Source: an uncultured Bacteroidia bacterium (GTDB lineage Bacteria > Bacteroidota > Bacteroidia > Bacteroidales > UBA932). Taken from it: DNA of 64,000 bases. The notes under the pieces are model-generated. The model worked only from the letters and a program-made list of their open reading frames with translations, did no database searches and was not told where the DNA came from. Each line of letters starts with the position of its first letter. Positions within the stretch are counted from its first letter, which is position 1. Where the stretch lies: positions 22,449-86,448 of the forward strand of contig CACZMF010000009.1 of NCBI GenBank assembly GCA_902782225.1, written 5' to 3'. Position numbers and translations under genes: made by a program. Positions 1,779 to 53,038 of the stretch are shown in pieces.

Positions 1779-3032
1779 ATGCAACAGCACATTGATTCCT
1801 ACGATTTCACCGGCAAAAAGGCGATCGTACGCGTTGACTTCAACGTCCCCCTCAACGAGAATTTCGAAATCACAGATGACACCCGCATCCGCGCAGCTAT
1901 GCCCACCCTCAAGAAGGTGCTCGCAGGCGGTGGCGCCCTCATCATCATGTCCCACCTCGGACGTCCGAAGGGAGTAGCTGACAAATTCTCCCTCAAGCAC
2001 ATACTCGCCCACGTGTCCGAGTGCCTCGGAGTCCCCGTGAAGTTCGCTCCCGACTGCCAGAAAGCCCAGGCCGAAGTCGCAGCACTGAAGCCCGGCGAGG
2101 CCCTGCTGCTCGAGAACCTCCGCTTCTACGCCGAGGAAGAAGGCAAGCCCCGCGGACTCGCAGAAGACGCCTCCGACGAGGAGAAGAAGGCTGCAAAGGC
2201 AGCTGTCAAGGCCTCCCAGAAAGAATTCGTGAAGACTCTCGCTTCCTACGCAGACTGCTATATCAACGACGCATTCGGCACCGCCCACCGCGCCCACGCC
2301 TCCACCGCCCTCATCGCCGACTACTTCCCCGAGGACAAGATGTTCGGCTACCTGATGGAAGGCGAGATCAAGGCCATCGACAACGTGCTCAAGAACGCCC
2401 AGCACCCCTTCACCGCTATCATCGGCGGCAGCAAGGTGTCCAGCAAGCTCGCAGTTCTGGAGAACATGCTCGAGAAGGTGGACAACCTCATCATCGGCGG
2501 CGGCATGGGCTACACCTTCATCAAGGCGGAAGGCGGCAAGATCGGCAACTCCCTCCACGAAGACGAGCTCATCCCCCAGGCCCGGGAAATCATGGCCAAG
2601 GCCAAGGAGAAGGGCGTCAACATCTACCTCTCCGTCCAGACCCTCGTGGCCGACGATTTCAGCGCTGAAGCCCACACCCAGATCGTCCCGTCCCACGAAA
2701 TTCCCGAAGGCTGGGAAGGCGTCGATGCCGGTCCCGAGTCCCTCGAGCGCTGGGGCAAGGTGATCCTCGATTCCAAGACCATACTCTGGAACGGCCCCGT
2801 GGGAGTCTTTGAGATCGCTCCGTTTGCCGGCGGCACCCTCAAGATAGCAGAATTCCTGGCCCAGGCCACCGAGAAGGGCGCGTACACCCTCGTGGGCGGC
2901 GGCGACTCTGTCGCAGCAGTCACCCAGATGGGTTACGCAAAGAAGGTCAGCTACGTCAGCACCGGCGGCGGCGCCATGCTCGAGGCCCTCGAAGGCAAGG
3001 AGCTCCCCGGTATCGCAGCAATCAAGAAATAA
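1779..3032 (+). CDS. pgk: Phosphoglycerate kinase
   Basis: 417 residues, full length for bacterial PGK. It transfers the acyl phosphate of 1,3-bisphosphoglycerate to ADP in cytoplasmic glycolysis. Visible family features are the N-terminal RVDFNVP motif, the SHLGRPKG loop (substrate phosphate binding), the ENLRFY motif, the [10 protein letters not shown] nucleotide-domain segment and the C-terminal [10 protein letters not shown] and STGGGAMLE glycine motifs that bind the nucleotide phosphates. The ATG at 1779 gives the standard N-terminus. A 47-codon peptide gene starts only 7 bp after the stop, followed by a surface lipoprotein, so part of the downstream expression may come from pgk read-through. 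Confidence 0.98.
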
Positions 3033-3039
3033 GCATATT

Positions 3040-3183
3040 ATGATCAAGAAAACAGAGCGTTACAGCGCCCCTGAAGCAGAAATTCTCGAAGCCGGATTCG
3101 GGGATATTCTGTGTCAAAGCCCCCAGAGCGGGGAAGATGTCAACAACCCGGGCAACTGGTCCGGTTACAATGGTTGGAATTAA
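3040..3183 (+). CDS. Small peptide (47 aa), Y..P.AE...ILCQS family
   Basis: An ORF of 48 codons from ATG 3040 to TAA 3183. It begins MIKKTERYSAPEAE and contains the motif ILCQS, followed by an Asn/Gly/Trp/Ser-rich tail. Two other small ORFs in the window (15576-15734 and 50634-50771) show the same layout: basic N-terminus, Y-x-x-P-x-A-(E/D), hydrophobic stretch, I(L/I)C(Q/E)S, acidic or polar tail. All three precede a fimbrillin-like lipoprotein gene. There is no signal peptide. It lies 7 bp after pgk and 12 bp before the lipoprotein. Function unknown; a translated leader, a partner peptide or a modified-peptide precursor are all possible. Confidence 0.7.
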   Translation: MIKKTERYSAPEAEILEAGFGDILCQSPQSGEDVNNPGNWSGYNGWN

Positions 3184-3195
3184 AATCGAAGCATC

Positions 3196-5838
3196 ATGAA
3201 GAAGATCTATACCATTGTATTCCTCGCCATAGCAGCTATGGCCGCATTCTCCTGCAACAAGGAAATCAAAGTGGACGGCAACGCCGCCCAAGGACCCAAG
3301 GTAGTCGTGGCCAGCACCGACCAGGACGTCACTCCCGACACAAAGACTTCGCTCAGCGGAGTGACCGTGCTCTGGAAATCAACCGACGCCGTGAAGGCAA
3401 TCTCAGCCGACGGCGCGACCGTCACATCCAGCCGCACCTCCGTCAATGAAACCGGCAAGAAGGCAGAATTCACTTTCGACGGCCTCACCGTCGCCGACGA
3501 TATCCTCCTCCTCGCCTACCCGGCCGAAGCCGTGAGCGCCCTGGAAGCCAAGGCAAACACCGTGACCGCTTCCATCCCCACCGTGCAGACCGCCACTCCC
3601 GACAGCTTTGCCGACGGAGCCAACATCGCGGTCGCTGCCGGCCAGGTGGAAGTCCCCGTGTTCCGTAATATCGGCGGCCTCCTGAGCCTCAAGGTCAATA
3701 ACGAAGGCATCGCTTCCGTGAAGCTGCTCGCCAATGAGCCGCTGACCGGCGGCAGCGCCGTCATCTCAGCAGCCGCTCCCTACGATGTGCAGCTCACCGG
3801 CGGCGCGGGTGAAGTGGAGCTCACCGGCGGCCTCGAGAACGGCCAGACCTACTACGCCGTCGTCTATCCCGGCAGCTACACCGGCCTGCAGATCGTCATC
3901 ACCGACGAAAAAGGACGCACGGCCACCTACAGCAACCCCAACACCCTGACCGTGGAGCGCAACGCCAACCTCTTCATCGCCGACATCACCGTCCCCGATG
4001 CCAAGTGGGAGGCCGTCACAAAGGGTGCCACCTGGGAGTACACATTCACCGGCAAGGCAGTCACCGCATACGGAGATGTGGAGCTTGCAGGCACCACCAC
4101 CCAGACCTGGAACATCACAGGCAACGGAGAGTACTTCGGCTACGACGGCACCAAGGGCCAGCAGCTGGGTTCCGGCTCCAAGCCCAACACGGCCCTCACC
4201 CTGAGCACCAATTTCGGCAGTAACTACGGGGTCACCGACGTGACCATTAACACATCCGGCGCCAACAGCATCGAAGCGACCGTGTCCGTGTCCGTGGGCG
4301 GCACCGCATTCCAGCTTGACAATCCCACCGCGGTCCTGACCGCAGCCGACCTGACAAACACGGCCACCGACTACAAGTTCATTGCTCCCGACGGCCAGCT
4401 CCACACCGGCGAAATCTTGATCTCCTACGCACAGACGAGCTCCAAGGCCATCTATGTGAAGAACATCACCGTCAACGCTGACACCCGCGAGCAGGTTGCA
4501 ACCCCTGAGTTCAGCCCTGCTGCCGGAGTCGTTGCCGCAGGCACCGTGGTGACCATTTCCACCACCACCTCAGGCGCGACTATCTACTACACCACAGACG
4601 GCTCCGACCCGACCACTTCGAGCAACCAGGGCGCCAGCGTGACCATCGACGCGGACAAGACCATCAAGGCCATCGCAGTCAAGGACGGCATGCGTGATTC
4701 CGAAGTTGCGTCCGCAACCTACACGGTCGGCACCGCCACCGGAGACGGCACCCTCGAGCACCCGTTCAACATCGACGGCGCGAAGGGCTACATCGACGGA
4801 GGCGGCACCGGTGAGGTCTATGTGACCGGCATCGTGTCCAGCATCGTGAAGGAGTACAATGCAGAGTACGGCAACGCCCAGTTCTGGATTTCCGACAGCG
4901 GCAAGACCGACGATTTCGAGGCCTACAACTGCTACTTCCTCGAGAACAAATGGTGGACCGCCGCCAATATCCAGATCAAGGTCGGCGACGTCGTGGTGCT
5001 CTGCGGCAAGCTCACCAAGTTCAACTCCACCTACGAGACGAAGAACAAGGAAGCCTACCTCTACTCCCTCAACGGAGCCACCACCGATGCCGTCCCGACC
5101 ATCTCGAAGACCGACATCACCGGGGTTTCCGCAGACGGCGTGACAGGCCAGACCACCACCGTCACCTTCTCGGCGGGCAGCGGCTGGACCGCATCCGTCG
5201 AGGCTGACGGCAGCGTCGTGACCTCCGCATCCATTGCCGGCGGCACCATCACCTACTCCGTTGGAAAGAACACCGGCTCAGCTCGTTCCGGATCCATCAC
5301 CGTGAAGCTCACCAACGATGCCGACAACACCCGCGTGGTGTCAGCTGTCATCAGCGTGGGCCAGCTCGCCGCATCCAGCACCGGCGGTTCCCACGCCTAC
5401 GTGAAGGTCACCTCCACCGCCGACATCACCGACGGCGACTACCTGATCGTCTACGAGGCCGGCAACGTGGCCTTCAACGGCGGGCTCAGCTCCTTCGATG
5501 GTGTGGGCAACACGATTGCCGTCACGATAGCATCCGGATCCATTGAGGCAAACGCAACCACGAATGCCGCCAAGTTCACCATCTCAAGTATGACCGACGG
5601 CTACTCCATCAAGGGCGCCAGCGGGAAGTACATCGGTGTCACCAGCTACAGCAATAGTCTCAAGACCCTTGACAGTGCTCTTGCCAACGGCATAACCATC
5701 AGCAACGGGAATGCCGTCATTACCGTGGAGACATCCGGAGGCACGATGACCTTGAGATACAACAAGGCCACCGACCAGACCCGCTTCCGCTACTTCAAAT
5801 CCGGACAGCAGGACATCCAGCTCTACAAGTATCAGTAG
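3196..5838 (+). CDS. Large modular surface lipoprotein with fimbrillin-like, CHB_HEX_C, OB-like and BACON domains
   Basis: 880 residues with a lipoprotein signal (MKKIYTIVFL...AAFSC, Cys about residue 20). The N-terminal 250 residues resemble fimbrillin-family lipoproteins (DTKT...VLWKSTDAV). About residues 434-511 look like a chitobiase C-terminal / Fn3-associated module (TIYYTTDGSDPT). About 515-625 resemble the OB-like domain of Bacteroidota lipoproteins, 633-725 a BACON domain (SAGSGWTASV), and 733-880 a terminal module ending IQLYKYQ. Such proteins are exported to the outer-membrane surface and often bind glycans or mucins. A strong terminator follows at 5856. The domain calls are by eye. 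Confidence 0.75.
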   Translation: MKKIYTIVFLAIAAMAAFSCNKEIKVDGNAAQGPKVVVASTDQDVTPDTKTSLSGVTVLWKSTDAVKAISADGATVTSSRTSVNETGKKAEFTFDGLTVADDILLLAYPAEAVSALEAKANTVTASIPTVQTATPDSFADGANIAVAAGQVEVPVFRNIGGLLSLKVNNEGIASVKLLANEPLTGGSAVISAAAPYDVQLTGGAGEVELTGGLENGQTYYAVVYPGSYTGLQIVITDEKGRTATYSNPNTLTVERNANLFIADITVPDAKWEAVTKGATWEYTFTGKAVTAYGDVELAGTTTQTWNITGNGEYFGYDGTKGQQLGSGSKPNTALTLSTNFGSNYGVTDVTINTSGANSIEATVSVSVGGTAFQLDNPTAVLTAADLTNTATDYKFIAPDGQLHTGEILISYAQTSSKAIYVKNITVNADTREQVATPEFSPAAGVVAAGTVVTISTTTSGATIYYTTDGSDPTTSSNQGASVTIDADKTIKAIAVKDGMRDSEVASATYTVGTATGDGTLEHPFNIDGAKGYIDGGGTGEVYVTGIVSSIVKEYNAEYGNAQFWISDSGKTDDFEAYNCYFLENKWWTAANIQIKVGDVVVLCGKLTKFNSTYETKNKEAYLYSLNGATTDAVPTISKTDITGVSADGVTGQTTTVTFSAGSGWTASVEADGSVVTSASIAGGTITYSVGKNTGSARSGSITVKLTNDADNTRVVSAVISVGQLAASSTGGSHAYVKVTSTADITDGDYLIVYEAGNVAFNGGLSSFDGVGNTIAVTIASGSIEANATTNAAKFTISSMTDGYSIKGASGKYIGVTSYSNSLKTLDSALANGITISNGNAVITVETSGGTMTLRYNKATDQTRFRYFKSGQQDIQLYKYQ

Positions 5839-9660: not shown

Positions 9661-9706
9661 CCAAAAAATACTTATCTTTACGACACTGTAAATAATCCCG
9701 TTGATC

Positions 9707-12064
9707 ATGAAGTCCAGAATAATTGCCCTTGCCGCGTTCGCCGCTTTTATGTTCAGCTCCTGCGTACAGACCCCCGCCGAAGTCTCCGTGACCGGCGTAA
9801 GCCTCTCCGAGGATGATATAGAACTGATTGAAGGCCAGACGCATACGCTCATTGCCACGGTCCTTCCCGAGAATGCCACCAACAAGGCAGTCGAATGGAA
9901 GTCCGCCGTTCCCGATGTCGCCACCGTGACCGGCGACGGCGTCGTCGAGGCCCTCGCCACGGGCGCAACCACCATAACCGCAACCACTCAGGACGGCGGA
10001 TTCAAGGCAAGCTGCCGGGTCATCGTCAAGAAAAAACTGATTCATGTGCAGTCCGTGAGCCTCAACCTGCCCTCCATAACCCTCACGGAGGGCGATTCGG
10101 TAATCCTGGGCGCCACAATATCGCCCGCCAATGCCGACGACCGTTCGGTCACGTGGAACGCATCGCCCGAGTCCGTTGTTACCGTAGAACAGAACGGACA
10201 CAACGGCATTGTCACGGCCGTGGGGCCCGGTGAAGGGACTGTGACCGTCACCACCAGCGACGGAGGCTTCCAGGCCAGCTGCAAGGTTACGGTAGAGGCC
10301 GCCACCATCAATGTCGAATCCGTGACCCTGGACAAGGAGACGCTGGACCTCAAGGAGGGAGAAACCGCCACGCTCACGGCTACCGTGCTGCCGGAGGACG
10401 CCACCGACAAGACCGTCAGCTGGAAGTCGACAAACCCGGACGTGGCCACGGTGGACGGGGAGGGCAATGTAACCGCCATCCTGGCCGGCCAGGCCAGCAT
10501 CACGGCGTCGAGCGGAGGCAAGGAAGCCACCTGCCAGGTGACCGTGAGCAAGATTGAGGTGGACGGGGTAACGGTAAACCCTGCCACGCTGGAACTGGTG
10601 GAAGGGGACGTCTTCCAGCTCAGCGCCAGCGTGAGCCCGGCCGAGGCCGACCAGACGGTGGAATGGGCCTCGATGGATGCCAGCGTTGCAAAAGTAGACT
10701 ACAACAACGGGACTGTCACCGCCGTGAGCGCCGGTACCACACGGATTTTCGCCCGTTCAAAGGCCTTCCCTGATCAGCAGGGCAGCTGCGAAATAACCGT
10801 CAGTCCGGACCCTGCCCTGAAGGGCATTGAGCTGAGCTCCGCCATCATGACCCTGCAGGTGGGCGAATCCCGCACGCTTACAGTCAGTTACACTCCTTCG
10901 TACGCAGCCAACAAGAACGTGTCGTGGGCATCTTCCAATCCTTCCGTAGCGGCCGTAGATAAGGACGGCACCGTCACCGCCTTTGCGGAGGGCAGCGCCA
11001 CGGTCACCGCAACGGCGGAGGACGGTGGCCATACTGCTTCGTGCGAGGTCTCCGTCTCCGGCAGCGCCGGGCCCATGGTCTTCTATGACTTGTATGATGG
11101 CCATGATTACGTGCCGTACATCAACGGCGCCCCCGACCCCCGCAACGGCATTTACGATGAACAGTCACTCCATTTTGCCGATGGACACATAGCCGGGGCC
11201 GAGTATTATGGCGGCACCCTCTATACGATTGAAGTATGGATGGGCTTGTATCAGCCGATCAGTTACTGGCTCTGCAAGGACAGGAAGCCTGCCGTCAAGC
11301 TTTCTATCCCTAATGGAGATAAAAAAATCCGCGATTTCATCGTCCGGGACGACTGGTTCGCCATCCTGGTCTCCTATCCGGGTTTCGAAAAACTAAGCGT
11401 TTTACGCTTTGACTATTCAGGTGGCTGCCAGGAAACCGTCCTTGACGCTTCCTCCTGTTCGTTCAGAAGAATCTACCACCCCGGAATGGTCTGCCTGCCG
11501 GACGGCACCCTCCGGGTAGCGGGAAGAATTGAAGATGCATACTTATCTCGCTACATTGCCACTTACGACATTCCCGCAGGCAGTTCAGTCCCCGGAAACG
11601 CAACGCTTCTTGACAAGAATGATGTTGGCGAGACGAGAATTGCCGCCGATTCCAACGGTGACGTCTATATCATGGTGCAAGAATACGCCCCAGGGAGCAG
11701 CGGCGGTCACTATCAAATCATCCTCTACAAAAACGGTGTCCGCTTCCGGGTTGTCGACAAAGTGGAGATGAACTATGACGGCGCTATTGCCTGCCGCGAC
11801 GGACATGTCTATTATGCAGTATCCGATTCTTCCGATCCTGATTTGACGAATATTCGGGTTTATAAGGACGATACCCTTCTCTACACCATTCAGGACAAGA
11901 GGTACATCTACTATAACGATGTCCGCCCCATGCGCATAAGCGCTGCCGGAGATGTTTACCTTGTACTCAGGAAGGACAGTTACGCCCTCTACAAGAACGG
12001 TAGCCTGCTCTATTCCTATGACGAAACAACAGGAGCATTCGAAACTTACTGCATAATCGAGTAA
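9707..12064 (+). CDS. Big_2 repeat surface lipoprotein with C-terminal propeller-like region
   Basis: 785 residues from ATG 9707; an upstream TTG in frame would add only two residues. The signal ends in the lipobox FSSC. Five bacterial Ig-like (Big_2) repeats follow at about residues 25-110, 111-205, 205-288, 288-370 and 371-457, each with the pattern VSLS...L.EG....L.A.V.P..A....V.W.S..P.VATV...G.V.A...G...ITA. About 458-785 contain repeated short blades (GDVYIMVQEY, GHVYYAVSDS, GDVYLVLRKD) suggesting a beta-propeller. A surface-exposed binding or adhesion role is likely; the ligand is unknown. The gene is convergent with the SseB/SUKH-like gene, 5 bp apart. Confidence 0.85.
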   Translation: MKSRIIALAAFAAFMFSSCVQTPAEVSVTGVSLSEDDIELIEGQTHTLIATVLPENATNKAVEWKSAVPDVATVTGDGVVEALATGATTITATTQDGGFKASCRVIVKKKLIHVQSVSLNLPSITLTEGDSVILGATISPANADDRSVTWNASPESVVTVEQNGHNGIVTAVGPGEGTVTVTTSDGGFQASCKVTVEAATINVESVTLDKETLDLKEGETATLTATVLPEDATDKTVSWKSTNPDVATVDGEGNVTAILAGQASITASSGGKEATCQVTVSKIEVDGVTVNPATLELVEGDVFQLSASVSPAEADQTVEWASMDASVAKVDYNNGTVTAVSAGTTRIFARSKAFPDQQGSCEITVSPDPALKGIELSSAIMTLQVGESRTLTVSYTPSYAANKNVSWASSNPSVAAVDKDGTVTAFAEGSATVTATAEDGGHTASCEVSVSGSAGPMVFYDLYDGHDYVPYINGAPDPRNGIYDEQSLHFADGHIAGAEYYGGTLYTIEVWMGLYQPISYWLCKDRKPAVKLSIPNGDKKIRDFIVRDDWFAILVSYPGFEKLSVLRFDYSGGCQETVLDASSCSFRRIYHPGMVCLPDGTLRVAGRIEDAYLSRYIATYDIPAGSSVPGNATLLDKNDVGETRIAADSNGDVYIMVQEYAPGSSGGHYQIILYKNGVRFRVVDKVEMNYDGAIACRDGHVYYAVSDSSDPDLTNIRVYKDDTLLYTIQDKRYIYYNDVRPMRISAAGDVYLVLRKDSYALYKNGSLLYSYDETTGAFETYCIIE

Positions 12065-15550: not shown

Positions 15551-15558
15551 TATATTTG
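15551..15558 (+). promoter_or_regulatory. -7 box of the peptide-lipoprotein pair
   Basis: TATATTTG, 17 nt before the small peptide ATG at 15576. The promoter is in front of the peptide, not of the lipoprotein. Confidence 0.65.
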
Positions 15559-15575
15559 CAAAAAACAACCAAACA

Positions 15576-15734
15576 ATGAAAAAGTATCAACGTTTGATAT
15601 ATGATCGCCCGCTTGCCGAGCCAGTATACGCGGAGGTCGCTTCGATTCTTTGCCAAAGCAACGAGGATCTGACATTCGATTCCAACATTAATTACAACAA
15701 TCCTTTCGGTGATTCGGAGGGCACAATTGATTAA
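15576..15734 (+). CDS. Small peptide (52 aa), Y..P.AE...ILCQS family
   Basis: 53 codons from ATG 15576 to TAA 15734. It starts MKKYQRLIYDRPLAE, contains SILCQSN in the middle, and ends in an Asn/Asp-rich tail (NINYNNPFGDSEGTID). The layout matches the small ORFs at 3040-3183 and 50634-50771. A good -7 box stands 17 nt upstream, and the fimbrillin-like lipoprotein gene begins 6 nt after the stop, so the peptide is the first gene of the unit. No signal peptide is visible. Function unknown. Confidence 0.75.
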   Translation: MKKYQRLIYDRPLAEPVYAEVASILCQSNEDLTFDSNINYNNPFGDSEGTID

Positions 15735-15740
15735 GAGATT

Positions 15741-16664
15741 ATGAAAAAGACAATCATATACCTTTTCATGGCATTTTCGCTGCTGGCTTGCAGTAAGGAA
15801 CAGCCCGCCGAGCCTGTCGGCGAAGAGAAACTGACGCTGGATTTTTCCGTCTCCGGAGGTTTGGAGCCCGAGACGAAAGGGGTCAAGACAAACTGGGCCA
15901 ACAACGACAAGATATACATATTTTTTGACCAGACCGTTTCTGAAGATCCGGAGTATCTGGTCATCAAGTATTTAAACTCGACAAAAAAATGGATCGCAGA
16001 TTCCTGGACCCCGGGACTCGAGTCCAAGATATATCATAATGCGTCCGGCAAACTCACCGCCCTGTACATGCCTAACGACAAAGTCGAAGGAACGATATCT
16101 TTTTCAAGGAAGTACAATTCTTCAACATATTCTTACAGCTATTCCGTATCGGCGACTGACAGGGCTGGAAAAACATTCTTCTCTTATGTGCTGAAAGCTG
16201 TCGACAAACCATATGTAGTCAGGAACGGCGTTCTGAGCACCCGTTTTGCCCTGGAGCCGGCACAAGATAGCTACTATCAGTTCTGCATTCCCAACAAAGA
16301 CCGGAACGGCAGTACCATAGCGAACTCGGAGTCCCATTATTACAAACTGAGCACAGATTACGTCGTTTATGCGCCCATGCTGTACAACTTTGACCCCGCC
16401 TCCGGATCCCTTTACTTCGAAAACCGCCCCAAAGGGTATATGTCCGCCTATTTTTACTCCGGGCTCTGCTTCGCCGGAGTAAGACAAAGTATCGGCACCG
16501 GAGAATCGACTTACTATTTCCATCTGCTGGACAGCAAGAATAACATCAAATACCTCCTTCGTGCCAAAGCGGACCTCAGCACCAAGAGGGCCTGGATCCT
16601 TCCTGCACTGAACGATAAAGACAGCAAGGGCAACTACCGCTGGGAGATAGAGCCGGAAGGATAA
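15741..16664 (+). CDS. Fimbrillin-like lipoprotein
   Basis: 307 residues with lipobox LLAC (MKKTIIYLFMAFSLLAC). The mature N-terminus carries the pattern of Bacteroidales fimbrillin-family lipoproteins: a beta-strand (LTLDFSVSG), then ETKG...TNWANNDKIYIFF. The remainder is aromatic-rich (YYQFCIPNKD, STYYFHLLDSKN) and ends WRWEIEPEG-like (YRWEIEPEG). It is probably displayed on the cell surface; whether it is polymerised is unknown. It is preceded by the small peptide gene and converges with the phosphatase gene, 3 bp apart. Base composition is more AT-rich than the core genes. Confidence 0.75.
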   Translation: MKKTIIYLFMAFSLLACSKEQPAEPVGEEKLTLDFSVSGGLEPETKGVKTNWANNDKIYIFFDQTVSEDPEYLVIKYLNSTKKWIADSWTPGLESKIYHNASGKLTALYMPNDKVEGTISFSRKYNSSTYSYSYSVSATDRAGKTFFSYVLKAVDKPYVVRNGVLSTRFALEPAQDSYYQFCIPNKDRNGSTIANSESHYYKLSTDYVVYAPMLYNFDPASGSLYFENRPKGYMSAYFYSGLCFAGVRQSIGTGESTYYFHLLDSKNNIKYLLRAKADLSTKRAWILPALNDKDSKGNYRWEIEPEG

Positions 16665-16667
16665 TAA

Positions 16668-17111
16668 CTACATTGCTTCGCATCCTTCAAGGATATCCTG
16701 GAAAGCTTCCTCAAAGTCGCCGGTATACCATGGGTCGGCGACGTCACGGCTCACTCCGGCATAAGACATCATAAGGTGGATCTTTCCCTGCGGGTCATCG
16801 GGAATGATACGCCTGAGGAGCCGCAGGTTCGACTGATCCATGCAGATGATCCTGTCGAATCTGTCATAATCGGCCCGGACAAGCTGCCTGGCCCGTTTGC
16901 CATTATCGAACTGTATCCCGTGCTGAGTCAGGCAACGCTTTGCCGGAGGATAAATTGGATTGCCAATCTCCTCCGTCGACACGGCCGCCGATTCTATATA
17001 ATACTGGGAATCAAGCCCTTTGGCCTTAACCAACGCCTTGAGTATAAACTCTGCCATCGGACTCCGGCAAATGTTTCCGTGGCAGACAAATAATATTCTA
17101 TTCATCACCAA
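16668..17111 (-). CDS. Low-molecular-weight protein-tyrosine phosphatase
   Basis: 147 residues. The P-loop CHGNICRSP near the N-terminus supplies the catalytic Cys and Arg, and DPWYTGDFEEA near the C-terminus carries the general-acid Asp, both standard for LMW-PTPs. It hydrolyses phosphotyrosine in the cytoplasm; in Bacteroidota such enzymes often act on kinases of exopolysaccharide export, but no such genes are near. The ATG at 17105 would give the typical start MNRILFVCHGN; the one at 17111 adds two residues. A TATATTCG box lies 15 nt upstream of 17111. Confidence 0.93.
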   Translation of the reverse strand: MVMNRILFVCHGNICRSPMAEFILKALVKAKGLDSQYYIESAAVSTEEIGNPIYPPAKRCLTQHGIQFDNGKRARQLVRADYDRFDRIICMDQSNLRLLRRIIPDDPQGKIHLMMSYAGVSRDVADPWYTGDFEEAFQDILEGCEAM

Positions 17112-50575: not shown

Positions 50576-50605
50576 TTGTTTATAAAATAAACTTTATTAC
50601 CTTTG
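50576..50605 (+). promoter_or_regulatory. Promoter of the third peptide-lipoprotein pair
   Basis: TTG (50576-50578), 19 bp, then TACCTTTG (50598-50605): a textbook Bacteroidota promoter. It is in front of the small peptide gene, not the lipoprotein gene. Confidence 0.8.
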
Positions 50606-50633: not shown

Positions 50634-50771
50634 ATGATTCTGAAGAGAATTCCCTACAGCCGGCCGGAGGCAGACGACCTCGAAGCGCTCCCCGGAAGCA
50701 TCATTTGCGAAAGCGGCGTCATTGGCGAGGCCGGAGATTTTGTTGACGGCGGAGATCCGCTTGTTATTTAA
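50634..50771 (+). CDS. Small peptide (45 aa), Y..P.AD...IICES family
   Basis: 46 codons from ATG 50634 to TAA 50771, beginning MILKRIPYSRPEADDLEALP, with SIICES in the middle and an acidic Gly/Asp-rich tail (GDFVDGGDPLVI). It has the same layout as 3040-3183 and 15576-15734. It is the first gene after a strong promoter, and the lipoprotein starts 14 nt after its stop. There is no signal peptide. Function unknown. Confidence 0.75.
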   Translation: MILKRIPYSRPEADDLEALPGSIICESGVIGEAGDFVDGGDPLVI

Positions 50772-50785
50772 ATGTAAACGGTGTT

Positions 50786-53038
50786 ATGAAAGCAATCAGA
50801 TCATACATATTGGCCGCCCTCGTGCTGACCGCGGCCGCAGCAGTGGCCTGTACCGTCGAAGACCAGCCCTCGCAGATAAAGAATAAGGTGACCTTTGTCG
50901 CCTCACTGTCACCGCGCGGTGCCGGTTCCCGCGCCCTGTCCGACCCGGGCGACGGCACCCTTGCATCCTCCTGGACCGTAGGCGAAGAGTTGAGCCTCCA
51001 GTACGACAACACATCTTCGCAGCGAGTCGAAGCCGTGGCTACCGTCACTTCGGTGGAATCCGACGGCAGTGCTACCATTACTGCAACCCTTGCCGACCCG
51101 GTGTCCTGTACCGCCAGTTTCTGTTATCCCTATTCCAGTTGCACCCTCAATAAGCCCAAGAGCATATTCACCGACCAGACCGGCACACTGGAAGACGTCA
51201 GCGCCAACTACGAACTGGTGTCCGGCACCGGTGCCATCGTTGTCAACGGCACCGAGGCTACGCTCCCGCAGAGCGTGGAAATGACCCACGAAACCTGCGT
51301 CTGGAAAATGTCCTTCACCGACGGCTCCTCCGACATCACCCCTACGATTACCAGCCTGACTGTCAGCGACGGCAACAACGACTATACCGTTAGCCCTTCC
51401 GGCCTTAGCACGATTTTCGTGTCGATGTATCCGACGGCCTCAAGCGCTAATGTCTCGATTGCGGCCACCACTGCCTCCGGAACCTATTCGTTGTCCCGGA
51501 GCGGCGTCACACTCGAGGCCGGCAAGCTTTACACCTCCACCGGAGTAGCCCTGTCCGCCTCCTCGGGAGACCCCCTAGAGAAGGCCCTGGCGTTGAAGGA
51601 GAATACCTACTCGGTTCAGAAGACCGGTGAGACGGCCCAGGTATTCCCGCTCGATCCGGCATATTCCCAGTGGTATGTCGGTCCAAGCTATATGGACGGG
51701 ACGCAGGAGGCTATCCATGTAGAAATGATGGACGAAGACCCGGAACTGATGACCATGGGCTGGTTCTCCGGAGAATTCCCTCCGGAGGTGGCCAACCAGC
51801 CCACCACCGTCGATGAAGATTTCTGCATGAAGTATAAATGGTCCTCGGCCAAGATGGGCACGATGAGGCTGTCCGGCAGCAATATGCTGGATGCGCATAT
51901 GGGCCAGGGGGGAAACGTAAAACTGGACGGCAGAAGCAAGTTTTGGATCAAAGTGAAGACCGGTACCAAGAGCTATTCTGGCGACTACCAGTTCCTGTTC
52001 GTCTTTGTATTTGTAAACCAGACCTGGGATCCGGATACGGAATCCTATATCTATGGCGACGAATACACAATCTGCGGGAACGCCACCCTGAAGGAACTGA
52101 TAGCGGACCTCGATAATTTCAGTCTGGATTATCCCAGCAGCTGGGTAGCCCCCGGCAAGTCCATTACCCTGACGGCCAGCTGGACCGCCGGAGCAAAATT
52201 CGACTGGAGCAAGGTCACCCTGAACAGCCAGACCCGCAATGGCGCTTCCGGCGAATGGTTCAGCTGGGATGCTTCCACCCAGAAGCTCACCGCCACCCAA
52301 TCGGCCGAGAATGAGCAGGTGAAACTGACCTTCGGTTACGCAGGAACGGATATGACTGATTACATTACCCTCTACAACGGTCCCGGGTACTCTTCATTCT
52401 CTCTTTCGATGCAAAACAGTTCCGCCGATTTTATCCTGGTCGAGAATGATCCTGCTTACGGATGGGGCAGCGACAGCATCTGGCTTACGGTAGATTCCTG
52501 GACGCCCGAGGGCTCTTCTTTCACCGGTTACGGCATAGAGATTGACCCCGCTACGGAGAACTACAACAAGTTGTATTACAATCCTTACGGCAAATATGTC
52601 GACTTCAAGAAGGGCATCCCGGAAGGAGAGTTTAACCTGATCTTCCGCAGCGTGACCGACCATAACGTCAAGTTCACCATCCCCGTAAAGGTGGTTCATC
52701 ATAAGCCCACCTCCTTCCAGATTACCTATAAGCACAGTAACGGCGCTTTTGAACCCTGGACCAGTGGCGGAGAAAACGGCGTGTGCAATTATCCTATGGG
52801 TATGGAAGTGGGTGTGATTACCACTCCGGAAGACGCCTACTGGAACTGGGCCTATGTAGAACTGGCCTACGATTACGACGGCTTCTCCTTCTCCGGTATG
52901 GGTGGCAAGGAGGATCACCCGAAGATTCAACGTACCACGAGCAATCCCGGCGGCGGGACTTCCTACGGTACCCAGATTATCTTCCGCCTGAAGTATGACA
53001 ACAGAAAGAAAAGTGAAATATATGTAAATCACAATTAA
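50786..53038 (+). CDS. Large fimbrillin-like surface lipoprotein
   Basis: 750 residues with lipobox AVAC (Cys about 22). The N-terminal 265 residues fit the fimbrillin-family layout: VTFVASLSPRGAGSRAL, then SSWTVGEELSLQY, and strand-rich Thr/Ser sequence to LEAGKLYTSTGVAL. The remaining 480 residues include an aromatic-rich middle (WKWSSAKMGT-like, KYKWSSAKMGTMRL) and Ig-like segments (ITLTASWTAGAKFDWSKVTLNSQT). It should be exposed at the cell surface; its ligand is unknown. It follows the small peptide gene. Confidence 0.75.
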   Translation: MKAIRSYILAALVLTAAAAVACTVEDQPSQIKNKVTFVASLSPRGAGSRALSDPGDGTLASSWTVGEELSLQYDNTSSQRVEAVATVTSVESDGSATITATLADPVSCTASFCYPYSSCTLNKPKSIFTDQTGTLEDVSANYELVSGTGAIVVNGTEATLPQSVEMTHETCVWKMSFTDGSSDITPTITSLTVSDGNNDYTVSPSGLSTIFVSMYPTASSANVSIAATTASGTYSLSRSGVTLEAGKLYTSTGVALSASSGDPLEKALALKENTYSVQKTGETAQVFPLDPAYSQWYVGPSYMDGTQEAIHVEMMDEDPELMTMGWFSGEFPPEVANQPTTVDEDFCMKYKWSSAKMGTMRLSGSNMLDAHMGQGGNVKLDGRSKFWIKVKTGTKSYSGDYQFLFVFVFVNQTWDPDTESYIYGDEYTICGNATLKELIADLDNFSLDYPSSWVAPGKSITLTASWTAGAKFDWSKVTLNSQTRNGASGEWFSWDASTQKLTATQSAENEQVKLTFGYAGTDMTDYITLYNGPGYSSFSLSMQNSSADFILVENDPAYGWGSDSIWLTVDSWTPEGSSFTGYGIEIDPATENYNKLYYNPYGKYVDFKKGIPEGEFNLIFRSVTDHNVKFTIPVKVVHHKPTSFQITYKHSNGAFEPWTSGGENGVCNYPMGMEVGVITTPEDAYWNWAYVELAYDYDGFSFSGMGGKEDHPKIQRTTSNPGGGTSYGTQIIFRLKYDNRKKSEIYVNHN

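Follow-up and report, generated by a model that had tools for sequence, protein, structure and literature searches.

The 64,000-nt stretch of contig CACZMF010000009.1 from an uncultured Bacteroidia bacterium (the window) carries three small open reading frames (ORFs), each located directly ahead of a lipoprotein gene on the same (+) strand; the encoded peptides are probably precursors of a system of ribosomally synthesized and posttranslationally modified peptides (RiPPs) that resembles the linear polyphosphorylated peptides (LPP), with precursors scattered over the genome. Peptide 1 (47 residues; 3040..3183) precedes an 880-residue lipoprotein with a CHB_HEX_C_1 / Fn3_assoc domain (3196..5838); peptide 2 (52 residues; 15576..15734) precedes a lipoprotein of 307 residues (15741..16664); and peptide 3 (45 residues; 50634..50771), which has orthologs in two related genomes (G011 and G027), precedes one of 750 residues (50786..53038), the spacing being 12, 6, and 14 bp, respectively. 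The ORFs and the lipoproteins behind them thus lie where the preliminary description had placed them and read as it described, and we concur, by eye, that none of the three peptides carries a signal peptide. No family was found for any of them in Pfam, NCBIfam, or PHROGs, and a profile search of the window's stretch of its contig returned no further peptide with the motif Y-x-x-P (YxxP). In peptide 2, a 20-residue leader core running from Y-D-R-P to I-L-C-Q-S (15600..15659, +) is followed by a variable, acidic tail (15660..15731, +), which we propose as cargo on the basis of its negative charge and of the covariation described below. The sequence TAnnTTTG is the Bacteroidota-type -7 promoter consensus; a promoter-like element of this type, TATATTTG, lies at 15551..15558 (+), 17 nt 5' of the start codon of peptide 2, and a further promoter-like element, TACCTTTG, lies ahead of peptide 3 at 50598..50605 (+). 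The reading frame of phosphoglycerate kinase reaches its stop codon 7 nt ahead of peptide 1 (junction at 3032-3040), and no TAnnTTTG site occurs in the 90 nt before this peptide; because of the short gap and the missing site, this peptide and its lipoprotein may be read together with the glycolysis gene.

The three peptides belong to a larger family in the window's genome, and both the family and its pairing with lipoproteins exceed chance. A profile built from the three window peptides only, with no genomic context (A1; threshold E <= 10), gave 16 matches in this genome, and all 13 of the new ones were followed by a lipoprotein ORF whose earliest possible start lay -20 to +18 nt from the peptide stop. 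The resulting 16-row profile (A2) gave 31 matches. At 29 of 30 own-genome loci the peptide stands directly 5' of a gene for an exported protein; these 29 proteins are of a single kind and almost all are lipoproteins, whereas the exception (L036) precedes another secreted protein. With one start chosen per lipoprotein, the distance from the peptide stop was -4 to +19 nt in 28 of the 29, and it was 46 nt at L044, where a script chose the Met. Of the 30 own-genome peptides, 14 have a TAnnTTTG site in the 90 nt ahead of them, against 1.8 expected from base shuffles. Among related genomes, 39 of 40 matches, chosen by hand and not a random sample, precede a lipoprotein-like ORF; these include L064, where the lipoprotein is 193 nt away, and L060, whose partner appears thioredoxin-like by eye, while the 40th match (L081) was rejected as a chance match. 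The preliminary description proposed a search across the Bacteroidales; a broad spread of the exact peptide profile over the order was not found, 8 of 295 genomes matching it at E <= 0.001, 2 of those from the same genus. A core ending in GIA-x-S is seen in six peptides of a single other family, and these too precede lipoprotein-like ORFs. Four peptide-lipoprotein pairs (L033, L034, L041, and L043) are less than 1 kb from the end of a contig, as if the repeated lipoprotein genes had broken the assembly, and the true number may be higher.

The peptides share a core and differ in what follows it. The 16 rows of the A2 profile align without gaps from Tyr to Ser, and the common core consists of Y-x-x-P, 13 residues, and C-x-S, followed by a short acidic tail (Y0, P3, E6, E9, C17, S19). 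When this fixed spacing was imposed as a pattern, it fitted 59 of 69 parsed peptides. Within these 59, Glu occupies position 6 in 35 and position 9 in 37, positions 15 and 16 are hydrophobic, and Ser at position 19 is kept in 58. Nine parsed peptides depart from the pattern, six of them with C-x-S or A-x-S shifted by one residue as judged by eye, and one additional peptide has no start codon. Tyr and Pro are invariant in a 65-row alignment (A3) whose rows were themselves found by such a profile and from which L073, L080, L081, and duplicates were left out. The motif given in the preliminary description accordingly holds as a local form within a family that varies more widely, and the weight it placed on a single fixed Cys was misplaced: position 17 is Cys in 54 of the 59, Ala in 4, and Leu in 1, and Cys was rejected as a defining residue. 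The tail after Ser spans 12 to 25 residues and is net negative in 59 of 59, and in 45 at least one of the last five positions is aromatic. At the conserved positions Pro and Tyr are encoded by every codon available to them (four and two) and Ser by five, a variety that is weak evidence alone, as the search itself selects for amino acids; together with a pair of paralogous tails, from one subfamily, that differ by 8 synonymous codon changes and 1 amino-acid change, it led us to reject conservation of a noncoding kind.

The partner lipoproteins were compared through the first 170 residues of 28 of the 29 own-genome partner proteins (alignment A9); a contig end truncates the 29th (L041), and L034, which is among the 28, has no clear lipobox. 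At a threshold of E <= 0.1 the A9 profile had 102 matches, of which 76 fell below 1e-5. Upstream regions of 13 matches were inspected; of the 8 that had no earlier peptide, 3 were preceded by a YxxP peptide that had been missed (L237, L241, and L243), and another, L242, counts as unread because of a wrong start near a contig end. Roughly four in ten members of the lipoprotein family, and not all, thus have a detected peptide. Within the window the A9 profile matched the three paired lipoproteins only, all of which had helped to build it, as is also to be borne in mind for the E value of 1.2e-22 obtained with the 307-residue partner of peptide 2. A 787-residue lipoprotein-like ORF at 9701-12064 contrasts with these three in having neither an A9 match nor a listed YxxP peptide. 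The fimbrillin-like character that the preliminary description attributed to the lipoproteins survives in weak form: scans of the first ~170 residues of the 28 members gave Mfa_like_1 in 3 at E <= 0.1 and the Mfa1 family in 2, along with weak matches to fimbrial, generic lipoprotein, and BSAP5b pore-forming-toxin families (BSAP5b E 0.0095), and PDB searches gave no pilin for the A9 own-genome profile or for the window lipoprotein. Some members thus resemble the type V pilins of Bacteroidales (the FimA/Mfa1 fimbrillins) in their lipoprotein signal and weak Mfa1/Mfa-like matches, but differ from them in showing no strong family match; to our knowledge, a preceding YxxP peptide is no part of the known type V pilus systems.

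Leader and tail relate differently to these lipoproteins. Over 65 pairs (L036, L041, L060, L064, and L081 left out), tail similarity correlated with lipoprotein similarity (Mantel r 0.23, p 0.001), whereas leader similarity did not (r -0.035, p 0.71). The tail correlation persisted in the own genome alone, in the relatives alone, and when close lipoprotein pairs were removed, and it was weak in the own genome minus close pairs (r 0.15, p 0.036). For the 25 lipoprotein pairs of highest similarity, the tails resembled each other more closely than the leaders in 16 cases and equally in 1. Ten pairs were compared codon by codon, having been picked after the list of alike lipoproteins had been viewed: the tail was better kept in 4, leader lengths were unequal in 3, 1 was near-identical in both parts, and 2 ran in the opposite direction. 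The leaders of the two paralogs whose tails differ by a single amino-acid change show 5 synonymous and 8 amino-acid changes. Such a contrast between tail and leader is what a shared leader joined to a specific cargo would give, and because tail similarity tracks lipoprotein similarity and leader similarity does not, the best reading appears to be that the YxxP half is a shared leader and the tail a cargo matched to its lipoprotein.

A candidate set of processing enzymes is encoded in the same genome. This genome (92% complete) was found to encode a single PqqD-family protein, whose gene (L124:8308-8577, -) lies outside the window as one of four in a row; the four code for a P-loop protein similar to PEPCK/HprK, a signal-peptidase-like protein, the PqqD protein, which is a RiPP recognition element (RRE), and an ABC exporter. 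The RRE matches PF05402 (E 1.1e-15); its best NCBIfam match is a lasso PqqD chaperone, below the curated cut-off, and its closest structure in the PDB is the lasso RRE TfuB1 (6jx3; E 0.0024), LppB not being among the structures listed. Its residues N35 and D73 are invariant in 5 RREs and, in our reading, would correspond to N33 and D70 of LppB, which hold the leader Pro and Tyr, an equivalence read through the TfuB1 alignment and those parts of PMC13381572 on which we draw throughout, not through an alignment with LppB itself. The peptidase is closest in NCBIfam to TIGR02228, archaeal signal peptidase I (E 2.6e-5, below the curated cut-off), and its S35, H73, and D88 are invariant in 6 peptidases. 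For the exporter the best NCBIfam match is CydC, followed by MsbA, both below curated cut-offs, and the kinase-like protein gave only weak ScmC, PEPCK, and HprK-related matches (E 0.0037 to 0.09).

Peptides and enzymes are linked in two ways. We examined 80 kinase loci, the best 80 of at least 580 kinase relatives. Peptidase and RRE accompany the kinase in 60 of the 69 loci that have 4.5 kb downstream; an exporter lies near 54 of the 80 kinases, and a nucleoside triphosphate (NTP) transferase is present in 11 of the 80 loci and in G016. Among 6268 short ORFs in the 80 loci, 14 match the YxxP profile after iteration, and the next ORF is a lipoprotein in 11, a secreted protein without lipobox in 2 (L175 and L178), and nothing clear in 1 (L202). 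Eight of the 14, from another Bacteroidales lineage, share the strand of the kinase and lie 1.9 to 2.1 kb beyond it, and each of these eight operons runs from kinase through peptidase, RRE, and NTP transferase to the peptide and then the lipoprotein. The lipoprotein follows the peptide by 45 to 69 nt in seven of these operons, while in L191 its frame overlaps the peptide and a later Met fits. Five of the eight operon lipoproteins match the profile of the own-genome paired lipoproteins (E 7e-15 to 9e-9), and the operon lipoproteins also match a solved "putative cell adhesion protein" (E 0.0036). In the less related locus L160, the order is RRE, exporter, another enzyme-like ORF, peptide, and lipoprotein. 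The second link is co-occurrence: 152 of 200 genomes of the same genus have both peptide and kinase, 9 have the peptide only, 20 the kinase only, and 19 neither (Fisher p 9.6e-10, uncorrected for kinship or phylogeny). A PqqD protein was found in 16 of 18 same-genus genomes searched, and the two without it (G015 and G029) are also without a peptide match. One genome, G013, has two PqqD genes and no YxxP peptide at E <= 0.001; one of these genes lies, by eye, among ORFs similar to asparagine synthetase, kinase, and sulfotransferase (L127:3613-11026), as in a lasso cluster.

The nearest known system is LPP. In the parts of Popov et al. (2026, Nat Commun, PMC13381572) used here, RREs are described as binding a YxxP leader motif, and the LPP system comprises the signal-peptidase-like LppS, the RRE LppB, the HprK-like LppK, an NTP transferase whose deletion left the detected products unchanged, and an MsbA-like exporter; the precursors have a YxxP leader and a variable C terminus, the leader being cut after Thr-1 and Ser3 being phosphorylated. 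The Ser, His, and Asp reported for LppS match the triad that is invariant in our six peptidases. Within that scope, the likeness extends to a discrete RRE, a possibly HprK-like kinase (a weak match in our case), an archaeal-type signal peptidase as leader peptidase, an MsbA-like exporter, a YxxP leader with a variable C-terminal part, the lack of a visible macrolactam synthetase, and the NTP transferase found in some relatives. The differences are that LPPs are called restricted to Bacillota, whereas ours are from Bacteroidales; that LPP clusters hold 1 to 3 precursors, while more than 30 are scattered here, each with a lipoprotein; that the motif after YxxP is FETxxS in LPP and C-x-S here; that Tyr and Ser are 18 residues apart in LPP and usually 19 here; and that LppA has a 45-residue core, compared with 12 to 25 residues after Ser in our peptides. 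Because no precursor was seen in its own cluster, which also lacks an NTP transferase, we describe the system as apparently LPP-like and do not class it as a member of LPP. In the open-licence literature we found no paper describing scattered precursors paired with lipoproteins under one enzyme set, and none that connects fimbrillin with either PqqD or Cryptobacteroides.

From these comparisons we infer a pathway in which the leader is bound and cleaved, the peptide is phosphorylated, and the tail is exported and acts on the lipoprotein. Peptide and lipoprotein would be transcribed jointly, often from a promoter ahead of the peptide, and the single PqqD-type RRE would bind the Y-x-x-P of the leader, as the motif and the RRE residues suggest. 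The HprK/PEPCK-like kinase might conceivably phosphorylate the conserved Ser of C-x-S, which is placed like S3 of the LPP core. Cleavage by the archaeal-type signal peptidase would fall close to C-x-S and the two hydrophobic residues: ahead of Cys if it follows LPP, or behind Ser if it obeys the -3/-1 rule of signal peptidases. The MsbA-like exporter would then release an acidic tail of roughly 12 to 25 residues, often with an aromatic residue at or near its end, which may act with the co-encoded lipoprotein as ligand, cofactor, or matched partner, as the covariation suggests. That one enzyme set serves as a hub for more than 30 scattered precursors, each with a cargo matched to its co-encoded surface lipoprotein, is a more tentative proposal, to which we give somewhat less than an even chance. 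An ORF resembling low-molecular-weight tyrosine phosphatases by eye (16668-17111) lies convergent to the lipoprotein gene at 15741-16664; its position beside a proposed phosphopeptide is possibly a coincidence.

The preliminary description offered three options for such peptides: a modified peptide, a partner peptide, and a translated regulatory leader. The first has gained much the strongest support, from the RRE-type leader motif, the matching cluster, and the YxxP peptides in the related operon, and a role as partner is supported for the tail by its tracking of the lipoprotein type. A purely regulatory leader would be an ORF whose reading controls how the lipoprotein is translated, by coupling or arrest, and whose product has no function of its own. 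The constant position ahead of the lipoprotein start and the promoter-like sites at 14 of 30 peptides speak for it; however, the conserved core stands well before the stop codon, the motif equals that of an RRE-binding leader and is found inside an RRE operon in a related lineage, and some paralogous tails are kept at the protein level despite many synonymous changes, so we regard this option as unlikely. An unmodified peptide acting in the cytoplasm as partner or chaperone of the lipoprotein, independently of the RRE cluster, would fit the covariation of tail and lipoprotein as well as the lack of signal peptides in the window. Its contact with an exported protein could be only brief, though, and the YxxP motif, the operon linkage, and the co-occurrence would be left unexplained; this possibility seems to us quite doubtful.

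It is also rather improbable that the processed tail is antibacterial and the lipoprotein protects its producer. RiPP-type machinery, matched types of tail and lipoprotein, and many diversified copies would all be in character for toxin and immunity pairs, but the lipoproteins are long (307 to 880 residues in the window), their N-terminal scans gave nothing near the curated cut-off for an immunity family, and many related lipoproteins have no detected peptide. A YxxP leader together with a PqqD-type RRE is found in lasso systems, and paeninodin-type phosphorylated lasso peptides share with our system the RRE, the HprK-like kinase, the NTP transferase, the exporter, and a [Y/W]xxP leader, as far as the parts of PMC13381572 cited above go. 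They differ in the enzymes that define them: no B2 leader peptidase was over the cut-off in our genome (PF13471 best E 0.013), and no macrolactam synthetase was seen by eye among the ORFs of the 16 kb around the cluster, the four cluster proteins having been scanned. A lasso identity was rejected for want of the B2 peptidase and is, in our view, highly improbable.

Several observations weigh against the interpretation of the peptides as leader-cargo precursors of an LPP-like system. The Mantel correlation is modest, and a rival cause of the covariation would be that the tail, being the part nearest to the lipoprotein gene, travels with it. In 8 of the 25 closest lipoprotein pairs the tail was less alike than the leader, many of the 16 favorable pairs come from one subfamily, and in the codon comparison the pairs L020-L051 and L024-L025 have tails less well kept than their leaders. 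The ratio of nonsynonymous to synonymous substitution rates (dN/dS), which the preliminary description proposed as a test, was 0.48 to 0.89 for the three orthologs of peptide 3, with too few changes to decide and no clear sign of purifying selection. The eight operon peptides represent one related lineage, though a divergent one (kinases 53-81% alike); they are without C-x-S, and none of the eight has an MsbA-like exporter within 4.5 kb. The absences that keep the own-genome cluster from being classed with LPP count here as well, as does the lack of correction for kinship in the co-occurrence test, in which 9 of the 200 genomes have peptides and no detected kinase and 20 have a kinase and no detected peptide. 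The strongest exception is G032, with 24 peptides and no detected kinase, although an RRE of the same type stands alone in this genome.

If our interpretation is true, LPP-like RiPPs occur in Bacteroidales as well as in Bacillota, a single genome can encode far more precursors than the 1 to 3 known from each LPP cluster, and such peptides are tied to a defined partner, a family of surface lipoproteins. Precursors located far from their enzymes would escape RiPP mining that takes clusters as its starting point. The role of LPP-type peptides, stated as unknown in the parts of PMC13381572 considered here, becomes directly testable through the pairing with lipoproteins. Should one enzyme set indeed serve the scattered precursors, the cell would display, or equip, a large and diversifying lipoprotein repertoire with cognate modified peptides.
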